Virus record (IMG/VR): IMGVR_UViG_3300011431_000002
Coordinates: 1 to 32,670 of that record
Origin: a virus
Length of the DNA: 32,670 nt
Strand: one strand, 5' to 3'
The notes under the pieces were generated by a model. That model searched no databases and was not told the DNA's origin. It saw nothing but the letters and a program-made list of their open reading frames with translations. The translations under genes and the position numbers were made by a program. How positions within the stretch are numbered: the first letter of the stretch is position 1; each line of letters begins with the position of its first letter. Positions 2,783 through 9,259 of this stretch are shown here, piece by piece.

Positions 2783-2889
2783 TGGGCAACGGACGGCCAC
2801 TCGGCCCAAAACATGCAGCGAGGGAAATGTTATGCTCGCAACTGCACCAGCTCGAGACCGTCTGCGAATCGTCGCGAAGGACTTCATGA
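2782..2889 (+). CDS. Tiny 35-residue coupled ORF
   Basis: A 35-codon frame begins at the ATG of a TGATG overlap with the preceding stop and ends at a TGA forming an ATGA overlap with the gene at 2886. The product starts MGNGRPLGPKHAAREM and contains two cysteines but no membrane segment or lipobox. The double overlap is the main reason to list it. It may be a true small protein or only a translational bridge to the coiled-coil gene. No function is recognised. Confidence 0.35.
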   Translation: MGNGRPLGPKHAAREMLCSQLHQLETVCESSRRTS

Positions 2890-3323
2890 ACCCGCAAACC
2901 CCAGCAGGCGGCGACCACTTCACGCCGATCGATCGGGAACGCATCATCACCACGAGCGTCGATCTGAAAAATCTCCGCGAAGACTTCCTCGACCTAAAAA
3001 AGTCACTATACGATGGGGACAACCGATTCACCACCATGGTGAGCACGCAGGGCAACCGCTTCGAAAGCCTGCTGAACGCTCAGGCGAACCGCTTCGAAGG
3101 CCTGCTGAACGCTCAGGCGAACCGCTTCGAAGGGCTGGTGAACGCGAACCAGGCTAAGTTCGAAGCCCTGGTAACAAAAGTCGAGGGCAAACTGGACGCG
3201 CAGGCCAAGGACCACGGCGAGCGGCTGGGCAAGCTCGAGACCTACAAGTACTGGCTCATGGGCGCCGCGGCCGGATCCGGATCCCTCGCCGGCCTGCTCG
3301 GCTCGCGGTTCTTCCATCCGTAA
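2886..3323 (+). CDS. Coiled-coil protein with repeats and C-terminal membrane anchor
   Basis: I place the start at 2886, with GAAGG 5 bases upstream and an ATGA overlap with the small frame before it, giving 145 residues. An in-frame ATG at 2832 with AGGGA upstream would add 18. The middle holds 11-residue tandem repeats of the type NRFEGLLNAQA, encoded by a 33-bp DNA repeat, likely forming a coiled coil. The C-terminus has one hydrophobic segment (WLMGAAAGSGSLAGLLG) after KLETYKY. A coiled coil followed by one membrane helix is the layout of XhlA-type lysis accessory proteins, so a role near the lysis genes is plausible but unproven. The stop at 3321-3323 touches the target duplication of the inserted element. 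Confidence 0.75.
   Translation: MNPQTPAGGDHFTPIDRERIITTSVDLKNLREDFLDLKKSLYDGDNRFTTMVSTQGNRFESLLNAQANRFEGLLNAQANRFEGLVNANQAKFEALVTKVEGKLDAQAKDHGERLGKLETYKYWLMGAAAGSGSLAGLLGSRFFHP
3055..3160 (+). repeat. 33-bp tandem repeat inside the coiled-coil gene
   Basis: A unit beginning GCCTGCTGAACGCTCAGG at 3067 repeats exactly at 3100 (period 33). Diverged partial copies lie before and after (AACCGCTTCGAA at about 3054, 3087 and 3120). The period of 11 codons preserves the heptad-like spacing, so copy number can change without breaking the frame. Confidence 0.85.
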
Positions 3324-3330
3324 AACACAC
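3323..3330 (+). repeat. Left target-site duplication, AAACACAC
   Basis: These 8 bases directly before the left inverted repeat are identical to 4322-4329 directly after the right inverted repeat. Eight bases is the duplication length known for the IS1595 family. The first A is the last base of the stop codon of the coiled-coil gene, which the insertion left intact. Confidence 0.9.
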
Positions 3331-3353
3331 GGGAATTATATAGGTGACTACAT
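3331..3353 (+). repeat. Left terminal inverted repeat
   Basis: Begins GGGAATTATATA and ends CTACAT, matching the reverse complement of 4299-4321 at 20 of 23 positions. Read outward on the minus strand it contains a perfect TATAAT (3335-3340) with TTAACG (3358-3363) 17 bases upstream, a possible promoter leaving the element antisense to the coiled-coil gene. Confidence 0.9.
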
Positions 3354-3363
3354 CCATCGTTAA
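3335..3363 (-). promoter_or_regulatory. Possible outward promoter at left end of the element
   Basis: On the minus strand, TTAACG (3358-3363), a 17-base spacer, and TATAAT (3335-3340). The -35 matches at four of six positions, the -10 at six of six. A transcript would leave the element and run antisense to the coiled-coil gene. Confidence 0.4.
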
Positions 3364-3374
3364 GCCTCATATGG

Positions 3375-3926
3375 TTAGCCTTTCGCCTTCTTCGCGGCCT
3401 TGCGGCGGCGTTTCTTCGCCGCTTTCGACTTCGGTTTCGGTCGATACGCGAGCACTGCGTCCGCCATCTTGTCGAGCACTTCCGGGACGCATTCGTCCAC
3501 TTCGATCACGCCCCGGAGCTTGTCCAGTGGTCCATCAGGTCCACCGCACGCCTCACGCAGGCGACCGAGGATAAACCATGCGGTTTTCTGAGTGACCCCA
3601 ATTTCCTTGGCGAGTTGCAGGCTGCTGATCCCCTTACGCGCGGTCACGAGCAAGTACATGCTGTACAGCCATTTGTGCAGTGGGACCTTAGACCGCTCGA
3701 AAATGGTGTTCGTGCGGATCGTGAAGTCGAAGTTGCAAGCCAAGCAGCGGTAGAAACCGGCCTTGCGTGTGGCGCACGTCCCCAGGGCACTCACGCGCTC
3801 TCCAGACTTACAATCAGGGCAGACCGGACCCTTGGGCCAGAGCCGATCCTCCAAGTAGACCCGCGCCGTCTCTTCGTCGGGGAAGAGCGCGAAAAGCTGG
3901 AATGTGCTGATGGTGGACTTGCTCAT
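3375..3926 (-). CDS. IS1595/ISXO2-type transposase relative lacking the catalytic domain
   Basis: The 183-residue protein has the N-terminal layout of IS1595-family transposases: FPDEETARVYLEDRLWP, then a zinc ribbon with C36-x-x-C39 and C61-x-x-C64 (CPDC, CLAC), the segment FERSKVPLHKWLYSMYLL, and a helix-turn-helix (about 95-125, ISSLQLAKEIGVTQKTAW). The family then continues into a DDE/DDN domain starting near VDETYIGG. Here the first part is kept as IEVDEC (141-146), but the rest is replaced by about 37 residues ending in a lysine/arginine-rich tail. Family members are usually near 300 residues. It should bind DNA but lacks a complete active site. Its ATG lies 3 bases after the stop of the 96-residue gene, so the two are likely co-transcribed. 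It may be a repressor or accessory binding protein of the element. Confidence 0.82.
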   Translation of the reverse strand: MSKSTISTFQLFALFPDEETARVYLEDRLWPKGPVCPDCKSGERVSALGTCATRKAGFYRCLACNFDFTIRTNTIFERSKVPLHKWLYSMYLLVTARKGISSLQLAKEIGVTQKTAWFILGRLREACGGPDGPLDKLRGVIEVDECVPEVLDKMADAVLAYRPKPKSKAAKKRRRKAAKKAKG

Positions 3927-3929
3927 GAG

Positions 3930-4220
3930 TTAGCACCTGAAAGTTGCGAAGGCTACTGGCATGTCGGGACGCTCTCCCGTCCGCTCCCCGACTTCATCCA
4001 GCAAATCAGAAATCACGCTGGTCACGACGCTGGCGGGAATCTCTTCGCCCATCGCTTCGTGGAGGCAGTTGACCATGTAGTCTTCAATCAAATCAGCAGC
4101 CTGTTCGCGGGCGTTTTTGGCGGGAGATCCGTCATGAAGGCCCTGGGGAGTGACCAAGTCGTAGTCCAGGAGAATCGTCCCGACCATCTGGATTGCCGTG
4201 TGTTTTGTGTGAGTCATCAT
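3930..4220 (-). CDS. Hypothetical protein, first gene of the inserted element
   Basis: The 96-residue product is unrecognised. It is acidic and probably helical in the middle (NAREQAADLIEDYM, ISDLLDEVGERTGE), with no membrane segment. It begins with two ATG codons (MMTHTK). There is no ribosome site upstream; instead the promoter at 4227-4255 puts the transcript start on or next to the first ATG, so the messenger is likely leaderless. It is followed after 3 bases by the transposase relative. It may be a regulator, a passenger or a stabilising protein of the element. The promoter and tight linkage support expression; function is unknown. Confidence 0.65.
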   Translation of the reverse strand: MMTHTKHTAIQMVGTILLDYDLVTPQGLHDGSPAKNAREQAADLIEDYMVNCLHEAMGEEIPASVVTSVISDLLDEVGERTGERPDMPVAFATFRC

Positions 4221-4226
4221 GTCTTA

Positions 4227-4255
4227 ATAGTAGCTGACTGCACGCATGTAGTCAA
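4227..4255 (-). promoter_or_regulatory. Near-consensus sigma-70 promoter, leaderless start
   Basis: On the minus strand TTGACT (4250-4255) and TACTAT (4227-4232) are separated by exactly 17 bases; both boxes match the consensus at five of six positions for -10 and at least four for -35. Only 6 bases (TAAGAC) separate the -10 from the ATG at 4220, so the transcript should begin at or within a base or two of the start codon. TGACT (4235-4239) and AGTCA (4250-4254) form an inverted repeat across the spacer, a possible operator. Confidence 0.72.
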
Positions 4256-4298
4256 GTACAAAGCGAGGTCCGATGCAAGATTTGTGTAGAGAAGGCGA

Positions 4299-4321
4299 AT
4301 GTAGACATATATATAATTCCC
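4299..4321 (-). repeat. Right terminal inverted repeat
   Basis: On the minus strand it begins GGGAATTATATA and ends CTACAT, pairing with 3331-3353 at 20 of 23 positions. On the + strand it contains an outward-facing TATAAT (4312-4317) without a recognisable -35. Confidence 0.9.
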
Positions 4322-4329
4322 AAACACAC
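4322..4329 (+). repeat. Right target-site duplication, AAACACAC
   Basis: Identical to the 8 bases at 3323-3330, directly outside the right inverted repeat. It marks the right insertion junction. Confidence 0.9.
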
Positions 4330-4362: not shown

Positions 4363-4740
4363 ATGAGCTTTTTATCTTCACTCGGCAAGGCACTGAAGTC
4401 GCGCACGGTCTGGGTCGGCATCGGCACGACCGCACTCGGCGGCGCCGAATTGCTCGCGCCCGTTGCGCCCTACATCGCGCCCTATGTTCCAGCTGGCACG
4501 CCCGTCGGCGCTGGCATCACCGCGGCGCTCGGCATCGCGACTATCATCGGCCGCATGCGCGCCAAGCAACCTATCGGGCCCGTCATCGACTCGACCATCG
4601 CGCAGACACTCGACGCCGTGCATCAGATCCAAGGCGGCGCGCAATCTGCAACCAGCTTCCCCAAAGTCGCGCCGATCGTGAAGGCGACGCCAACTGGCGA
4701 GCTGCCCAGCGAGCAACCCAAAACGATCCCGACGCGCTAA
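4363..4740 (+). CDS. Holin-like small membrane protein
   Basis: I use the ATG at 4363 (MSFLSSLGKALKSRTVW, 125 residues). The longer frame from 4273 would begin inside the inserted element. A basic amphipathic start (GKALKSRTVW) is followed by two hydrophobic stretches, about WVGIGTTALGGAELLAP and GAGITAALGIATIIG, and then a polar C-terminus. This layout and its position just ahead of the terminase genes resemble phage holin-like membrane proteins, but two weak segments are not enough for certainty. There is no strong ribosome site. A hairpin GCGGCG (4341-4346) / CGCCGC (4357-4362) abuts the ATG and could limit or time translation. The element inserted just upstream separates it from the gene before it. 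Confidence 0.65.
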   Translation: MSFLSSLGKALKSRTVWVGIGTTALGGAELLAPVAPYIAPYVPAGTPVGAGITAALGIATIIGRMRAKQPIGPVIDSTIAQTLDAVHQIQGGAQSATSFPKVAPIVKATPTGELPSEQPKTIPTR

Positions 4741-6973: not shown

Positions 6974-9259
6974 ATGACGCCGCGACCCCCAGCAGTTGAC
7001 CCCGGTGCCGAGCAGCCCATGGACCCGACGCAGCTGGCCGGCGCGCCGCCGCCGCTCGATCATGAGCCGCCGGATCCGCCCACCGAGCCCGCGGCGAAGC
7101 AGTCCTTCAAGCAGATCAAGCTGACCCCGCGCGAGCAGCAGCGTCTTTACTCGCACATCTGGGAGAACTTCATCGCCGCGCGCAGTGATCACGATGCGCG
7201 GATCGCTCGCTTCAGGCGCTACTGGCGCATGTGGCGCGGCCTCAATCAAACCGTCGGCGATCGCAACGTCGGCCCCGATTTGCAGATCCCGCTAATTAAG
7301 TGGACGGTCTTCGGACAGTGGGCGAAGTATATGTCGGCGCTGCTCGGCGACGATGCCGAAATCGTCGCGCGCGCCCAGGCACCGACCGCGCAGGCCGACT
7401 CGAAGAAGGTCGGCAAATACATGACCTGGCGCATCTTTGAGTACATGCAGGCGACGATCCCGCTCGCGAGCTGGGTCTTCCGCGCGATCCTGTTCGGCCG
7501 CGGCTTCGGCGAAACGATTTACGAGCAGGAGTATTACTTCGAGCGCGACGAGAACACCGGCGACGACAAGGAAGTGCTCGCCTATGACGGGCCCAAGCTG
7601 CGCGCGCTGTGGCCTTCGCAGCTGATCCTTCCGGCGATGGACGTCGATTCGATTGACGACTTCGATTGGAAGATCCGGCGCGATCGCATCACGCCGCAGG
7701 AGCTGCTTGACGGCGAAGAGCGCGGCAAGTATTTCGACATTCAAACCCGCTGGACCGAGATCAGCTCGGGCGCGCAGCAGCGGCAAGAGCGCGACTTCTG
7801 GTGGGACGATGAGAAGATCGACGCCGATGAAGCCGAGGGCGTCGACAAGGTCAACACGCTCGGCCGGCGCGATTCGCTCGAGGTGTGGCGCTGGTATGGG
7901 AAATGGAGACTGCCCAAGGGCGGCCGCGACGTCACCCCGGACAACATCAAATATCGGGAAGTGAAGCAGAGCGAGCTGCTGGTCACCGTGCTCCCCAAGC
8001 TCAACCTGGTGATCGGCGTCCAGGATCTGCGCGACATCTATCCGCGCATGCGCAAGCGGCACCCCTTCGTCGACCTGGCCACGGTCAAAGACGGAAGCTA
8101 CTGGTCGCCGGGCGCGGGCGAGCTGCTCGAGGATCTACAGAACGAACTGTCGATCAATCACGCGCTATTCCGCAAGGCCGGCATGCTCTCGACGGGCCCG
8201 GTGATCTTTTACAAACCCAACGGGCAATTCGATCCGCAGACGTTCAAGTACGACGCCGGCACGGCGATCCCGACGATGGACCCGACGAGTGTGAAGGTCA
8301 TCACCTTCAACGCGAATCTGGAATATTGCCAGATCATGAATCAGGCGATCAAGGCGATCGCCGAGCTGGTCACGGGCGTCAACGATCAGTCACTCGGCCG
8401 GGCAAGCGACCGTCCAAATGCCCCGCAGACGGCGGCCGGCCAGGCGATGCTACTGCAGGAAGGCAACACGCGCAGCGGACTCGACATGATGATGCTGCGC
8501 GAGGATCTCTCGAAGTTTGTAAGCCTGGTCTGGCTGCTCGATCGCGAGTATGGCGACCAGAAGGTTTTCTTCCGAGTGACGGAAGACGATGCCGTCGGCT
8601 TCGACGTGTCGAACGGCTTCGGCACCATGACGGCTGAAGAGCGCGAGCACCCTTTCGCCTTCGACGTCCGCTTCGCGACGAGCATCTGGGCGCGCGAGGC
8701 CAAGAAGCAGATGCTGATGCAGCTCTACGGGCTCAGCATGCAAAACCCGATCGTGCAGCAAGACCCGAAAGCGCTGTGGACCTTGCTGAATCGCGTGTGG
8801 CAGGCGTTCGGCGAAGACGGCTTCCAGGACGTGATCCCCGAGCCGCCACACCCGGAGCGGCCGAAGATGCCGAAAGAAGAATGGGCGCTGATGCTCAAAG
8901 GCGAGGTCGTGCACGTCTCGCCGATCGACGACGACGATCAGCACATCATCGACCACCGGCGCCGGCTCGAAGACGAAATCAACGAGCCCGACGAACGGCA
9001 GGACATGCAGCTGCAGCACATGGCCAAGGCGCACATCATCGAACACGAACGACAGAAGCGGCAGAAGATGGTCTTGCAGCAGCTGGCCGCGAAAGCGATG
9101 CAGGTGATGCAGTCCGCCCAGCAGCAGAACGGCGGCCAGCCGCCCGCGATCGCACCCGACGGATCCGGAGGCGCACAGCCCGCGGCCGCAGGCGCCGGCG
9201 GCTTCGGACCGCCGCCGCTCAACGCACCACCCGAACAGCCGGCGCTGGCAGCGACGTAG
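6974..9259 (+). CDS. Portal protein (long, podovirus type)
   Basis: The 761-residue protein follows the terminase, begins after a strong AGGAGG ribosome site, and has a proline-rich start (1-40) and a glutamine/alanine/proline-rich end (about 690-761). Between them are stretches typical of large portals: FRRYWRMWRGLNQ, an acidic/aromatic wing, and a long helical crown region (EINEPDERQDMQLQHMAKAH). A dodecamer of this protein forms the DNA channel at one capsid vertex and binds the terminase. Portals above 700 residues are common in short-tailed phages of the P22 type. No protease or head-morphogenesis domain is seen fused to it. Confidence 0.85.
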   Translation: MTPRPPAVDPGAEQPMDPTQLAGAPPPLDHEPPDPPTEPAAKQSFKQIKLTPREQQRLYSHIWENFIAARSDHDARIARFRRYWRMWRGLNQTVGDRNVGPDLQIPLIKWTVFGQWAKYMSALLGDDAEIVARAQAPTAQADSKKVGKYMTWRIFEYMQATIPLASWVFRAILFGRGFGETIYEQEYYFERDENTGDDKEVLAYDGPKLRALWPSQLILPAMDVDSIDDFDWKIRRDRITPQELLDGEERGKYFDIQTRWTEISSGAQQRQERDFWWDDEKIDADEAEGVDKVNTLGRRDSLEVWRWYGKWRLPKGGRDVTPDNIKYREVKQSELLVTVLPKLNLVIGVQDLRDIYPRMRKRHPFVDLATVKDGSYWSPGAGELLEDLQNELSINHALFRKAGMLSTGPVIFYKPNGQFDPQTFKYDAGTAIPTMDPTSVKVITFNANLEYCQIMNQAIKAIAELVTGVNDQSLGRASDRPNAPQTAAGQAMLLQEGNTRSGLDMMMLREDLSKFVSLVWLLDREYGDQKVFFRVTEDDAVGFDVSNGFGTMTAEEREHPFAFDVRFATSIWAREAKKQMLMQLYGLSMQNPIVQQDPKALWTLLNRVWQAFGEDGFQDVIPEPPHPERPKMPKEEWALMLKGEVVHVSPIDDDDQHIIDHRRRLEDEINEPDERQDMQLQHMAKAHIIEHERQKRQKMVLQQLAAKAMQVMQSAQQQNGGQPPAIAPDGSGGAQPAAAGAGGFGPPPLNAPPEQPALAAT

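Follow-up and report, generated by a model that had tools for sequence, protein, structure and literature searches.

The 991-bp element at positions 3331–4321 is the single copy in the window, a linear 32,670-base IMG/VR virus record, and is very probably a deletion derivative, non-autonomous and mobilised in trans, of an IS1595-family lineage that resides in phages and carries cargo genes.

Element boundaries and insertion site

The sequence-only reading had described 23-bp inverted repeats, a perfect 8-base duplication on both sides and two internal genes in an insertion that left the neighbouring phage genes unbroken, and all of these were found again (Table 1). The inverted repeats matched at 20 of 23 nt, both ends read GGGAATTATATA and began with the GGG typical of IS1595, the 8-bp target duplication was AT-rich as in that family, and both ORFs were on the minus strand. 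The insertion lay directly after the stop codon of the upstream gene (2814–3323), and the next phage ATG was at 4363, 33 nt beyond the insertion, so neither phage gene was broken. Among the genes of the phage are those for a terminase and a major head protein; its portal match was weak.

Table 1. Positions of the element's features in the window
Feature	Position	Strand	Remarks
Left copy of the 8-bp target duplication, AAACACAC	3323..3330		Begins with the final base of the upstream TAA stop
Terminal inverted repeat (TIR), GGGAATTATATAGGTGACTACAT	3331..3353		Adjoins the transposase 3′ end
Truncated transposase ORF, 183 aa	3375..3926	-	Residues 1–146 transposase-derived; zinc ribbon (residues 16–65) and HTH region
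C-terminal 37 residues of the 183-aa ORF (VPEVLDKMADAVLAYRPKPKSKAAKKRRRKAAKKAKG)	3378..3488	-	In frame; from the element's separate small basic gene
Deletion junction	3488..3489		About 515 bp of the full-length relative L002 (transposase catalytic domain) missing
Cargo ORF, 96 aa, orphan	3930..4220	-	Predicted mostly helical, low confidence
Sigma-70-like promoter, TTGACT-17-TACTAT	4227..4255	-	Directed into the cargo-transposase pair; L009 and L011 share this layout
Terminal inverted repeat (TIR)	4299..4321		Promoter/cargo end
Right copy of the target duplication, AAACACAC	4322..4329

An exact empty site was not found for the window or for two further sites tried. Relatives lacking the insertion, which had been proposed as a check, were obtained in part: in the closest relative, L176, whose terminase is 85% identical, the same two syntenic genes have no element between them, but to the left of the site lies a gene unrelated to the window's left gene, so a single-copy target could not be read there. 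Judged by this comparison, the gene left of the insertion is a variable slot in the window's phage type. For L137, a 20-mer search for the empty site gave no match, for L015 the relative ended short of the site, and cross-comparison of loci for empty sites returned only same-site copies or TIR matches. Joining the flanks and looking for ORFs across them, to see whether the insertion sites are intergenic, did not discriminate, since random positions gave ORFs of at least 100 aa 88% of the time. The window's gene at 2814–3323 encodes repeated RFExLLNAQAN-like units, and an unrelated gene occupies its place at 4625–5116 of L176.

Truncated transposase and small basic gene

The assignment to IS1595 was upheld by protein profiles as well as by the ends and the duplication. 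The 183-aa ORF matched the PF12760 zinc ribbon with 32.4 bits (cut-off 25.4), with weak HTH matches, and its full-length relatives contained PF12760 and PF12762 and scored 176–208 bits against NF033547 (cut-off 75), far above the cut-off. Against NF033547 the window transposase scored 67.8 bits and covered profile positions 1–96 of 215. The DDE catalytic domain was detected by PF12762 or NF033547 in relatives L002, L003 and L015 and was not detected by either in the window copy, which was therefore filed as an IS1595-family deletion derivative and not as a functional insertion sequence; the earlier description of the element as complete was given up.

The closest full-length relative, L002 (84.6% DNA and 98% protein identity over the shared N-terminal part), matched the window up to element position 836 (L002 position 511) and again from element position 834 (L002 position 1027), so that the stretch containing the DDE domain is missing from the window copy. 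As read from this alignment, a single clean deletion of about 515 bp removed the DDE core, leaving the DNA-binding half and the small basic gene as one continuous reading frame. With its catalytic domain deleted, the window copy is non-autonomous, and no transposase source was found within the 32,670-base window. In L005 the transposase had independently become fused, again in frame, to this small gene, and L004 and L009 carried in-frame internal deletions of the transposase.

The small basic gene (about 40–45 aa; (L)DKIADVVLAYRPKPKSKAAKKRRRK) was found at positions 1018–1137 of L002 and in the same place in L003, L007, L011, L019, L022, L032 and L033. Its start overlapped the transposase stop as ATGA in all 10 full-length relatives checked, and in nine of the 10 this frame encoded the conserved small protein. 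The protein matched no Pfam family and is likely an accessory transposition protein. In full-length members the first TIR is followed by the promoter, then by cargo and/or transposase, the small basic gene and the second TIR, with the cargo either upstream or downstream of the transposase.

In many relatives the TTGACT −35 box, followed by a 17-bp spacer, sits inside the TIR, so binding of the ends is expected to shut off expression. The 96-aa cargo ORF of the window had no relative in viral contigs, plasmids, Pfam or PHROGs, and its single-sequence structure model was poor (pLDDT 55); that this gene is useful cargo is a guess.

Distribution, cargo and mobility of the lineage

A protein scan of viral contigs, which are computational predictions, yielded 56 relatives. 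Elements L002–L035 mostly had the end sequence GGGAATTATATA..., most of them with perfect 8-bp duplications, and two end-sequence scans gave at least 97 distinct viral-contig elements with a matching TIR core and a perfect 8-bp target duplication. Among these listed elements, 46 contained a full transposase, 14 a partial one and 37 none; the median size was 1694 bp with a full transposase and 580 bp without any. Perfect 8-bp duplications flanked 84 of 135 inward-facing end-motif pairs in the fetched loci (three pairs had 7-bp and none 9-bp duplications), compared with no duplications at shifted control positions, so the paired ends are not chance matches. This disposes of the possibility, raised beforehand, that the repeats were accidental and had no copies elsewhere. 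Looser pairing of unpaired ends gave no further elements. Among the elements listed, the target duplications were 81% A+T, and the flanking DNA was mostly 35–48% A+T. As these sequences show, the lineage inserts into AT-rich 8-mers and duplicates them. The same AT-rich target preference is found in ISApl4, another IS1595 member (PMC12561309).

The 119 flanking genes included many phage hallmarks (several portal types, terminases, head proteases, DNA polymerase A, T7 endonuclease I and gp5.9), and the flanking families listed included only one integrase. In 50,697 INPHARED records nothing exceeded 38% identity, the best matches being 36–38% identical and located in gut fragments. In a tree built from the matches listed, a supported clade of 75 transposases comprised 46 viral ones and 29 that came from genome assemblies, with one MAG contributing 11 of the 29. 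Some of the genome matches listed lie beside chromosomal genes. Describing the lineage as phage-restricted was rejected because some genome matches are truly chromosomal; it is phage-associated, not strictly viral. Among the origins put forward in the sequence-only reading (a prophage, a recent insertion or a phage-adapted element), the number of viral-contig elements and their phage-gene flanks agree best with a recent insertion and with a phage-associated lineage.

Elements L014 and L015 were 85% identical over the left 1 kb and 93% identical over the right 155 bp, with unrelated cargo between, and L021 and L024 showed the same pattern of swapped cargo. On these pairwise comparisons, the cargo is modular and is exchanged between related transposase modules. 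DNA-modification genes made up 14 of 71 cargo ORFs in the first set listed (nine N4/N6 methylases, two C5, one Dam and two Mom) versus four of 119 flanking ORFs (Fisher p = 4e-4), the longest nearby ORF being taken for the flanking sample, a choice that should not work against methylases. PAPS-reductase-like and QueD-like genes were also present in the first set, and the second set added an N4/N6 methylase, an MT-A70 match, an ASCH protein and another PAPS-reductase-like gene. More than half of the cargo was without identification.

One 1561-bp element was present on three contigs (L154, L302 and L315; 99.7–99.9% identical) with three different duplications and no similarity between flanks, so the family has been recently mobile. 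One Gammaproteobacteria MAG (G004; L200–L212, L222 and L223) contained a burst of near-identical 1.45-kb copies, with 28 end matches in its 3.1-Mb genome and ten near-identical copies with perfect duplications, of which nine differ. That almost the same element occupies several sites is indirect evidence that catalysed transposition occurs in the lineage.

In L077, a 476-bp transposase-less element (7127–7602) apparently lies inside the terminal repeat of a same-family element (7107–8583). In L007, left ends occur at 3534 and 4052, about 520 bp apart, and the outer one pairs with the right end by its duplication; this looks like a stacked insertion or a one-ended event.

Probable mobilisation in trans and alternative explanations

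The window copy was most likely moved by a full-length transposase acting in trans, which may have come from another phage or from a prophage sharing the cell. What is left of the transposase, a zinc-ribbon/HTH protein, is still expected to bind the ends and could repress the promoter and compete with the active transposase, as InsA of IS1 does. Three other accounts of the copy were weighed against this one. It could be an ordinary bacterial IS1595 element that hopped by chance from the host chromosome into a phage and is now decaying: bacteria commonly carry IS1595 elements, the transposase of this copy is defective, and members of the clade are found in some chromosomes and distant ones in plasmids. 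We consider such an origin very unlikely, since the closest relatives in the protein scan (66–98% identical over the N-terminal part) are in viral contigs, whereas no plasmid match reached 60% identity, and the TIR pattern was present in one of about 693 sampled bacterial genomes (none of 397 Pseudomonadota genomes, the centre apart, and one of 297 Acidobacteriota genomes). The perfect target duplication and near-perfect TIRs also speak against long decay. Alternatively, the element transposed at full length, suffered its deletion later in place and is now an immobile relic, and indeed the deletion could postdate the insertion and the window supplies no transposase. A relic is unlikely, however, in that both ends are preserved and at least 37 transposase-less relatives with perfect target duplications show that products of deletion or replacement are mobilised.

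The third account holds that the truncated transposase has been selected as a DNA-binding-only regulator that represses autonomous copies or the promoter of its own element. Between the window and L002, the N-terminal half gave a dS of 1.21 and a dN of 0.007 over 125 codons, as under extreme purifying selection, and a three-way count from the pairwise numbers assigned about 25 silent and 1.5 replacement changes to the window branch; the ORF is intact, and the fusion in L005 to the same small gene is independent and in frame. InsA of IS1, which represses its promoter and competes for both ends, works in such a way (PMC12428005). Like InsA in the InsA/InsAB′ system, the window ORF has the transposase N-terminus without a catalytic domain and is predicted to be a DNA-binding-only protein, and a transposase of the clade weakly matches the IS1 family model; InsA, however, is made alongside the transposase by frameshift design, whereas its putative counterpart in the window arises from a genomic deletion. 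The dN/dS is as expected if the truncated protein has been under selection, but equally if the deletion is very recent, and selection for truncated transposases was dropped as a claim because it is unproven and such a deletion gives the same counts. The truncated copies L008, L010 and L018 are moreover not in frame, and L072, L157 and L321 keep only C-terminal remnants, as undirected decay predicts. Selection as a regulator is somewhat unlikely.

Beyond the derivation of this copy and its movement in trans, we tentatively suggest, as a real possibility, that the lineage is phage-adapted and mainly serves, in ecological terms, to shuttle small accessory genes, chiefly DNA-modification (anti-restriction) genes, between unrelated phages, with transposase-less single-gene cassettes mobilised by the transposase of co-resident phages. 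The cargo of sister elements is often a DNA-modification gene, and escape from bacterial restriction enzymes is therefore the likely benefit that the family as a whole brings to phages. Insertion sequences are generally considered rare in phages. The number of elements, the exchange of cargo and the transposase-less one-gene forms would together give accessory and anti-restriction genes, including DNA modification that may help phages dodge restriction, a concrete way of moving between unrelated phages without homologous recombination. If so, the lineage would be a transposition-based source of phage 'morons', whose origin becomes testable by looking for GGGAATTATATA ends and an 8-bp duplication around accessory genes.

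In the IS1595 family, passenger genes can lie beside the transposase; Siguier, Gagnevin and Chandler reportedly described the family (ISXO2-like), including members with passenger genes, in 2009. The lineage resembles the family in its GGG ends, 8-bp AT-rich duplications, zinc-ribbon, HTH and DDE transposase and passenger genes, and differs from it in residing mainly in uncultivated phages, in the small basic gene overlapping the transposase stop and in its many transposase-less cargo forms, the window copy itself being without a DDE domain. The window copy derives from this family, and its relatives are expected to function in the family's manner. In the openly readable literature, no account of a cargo-bearing IS1595 lineage in phages was found. 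MITEs and other non-autonomous derivatives likewise keep their ends, have no working transposase and are presumably moved in trans, whereas many of the transposase-less forms here hold an intact, recognisable cargo gene instead of filler. For the mycobacteriophage elements MPME1/2, we know of no IS1595 link or variable cargo. They too are very small inverted-repeat mobile elements among phage genes, but in MPME1, which measures 439 bp, 6 bp of unknown origin are added at a single end (PMC3029335), in contrast to the 991 bp and 8-bp direct duplication of the window element. A more distant viral IS1595-like group (L040, L043, L049–L051 and L055) had other ends (GGGAACGATATAC... and GGGAACTATATACCTG...) with perfect 8-bp duplications, and L053 and L055 were on contigs of about 412 kb.
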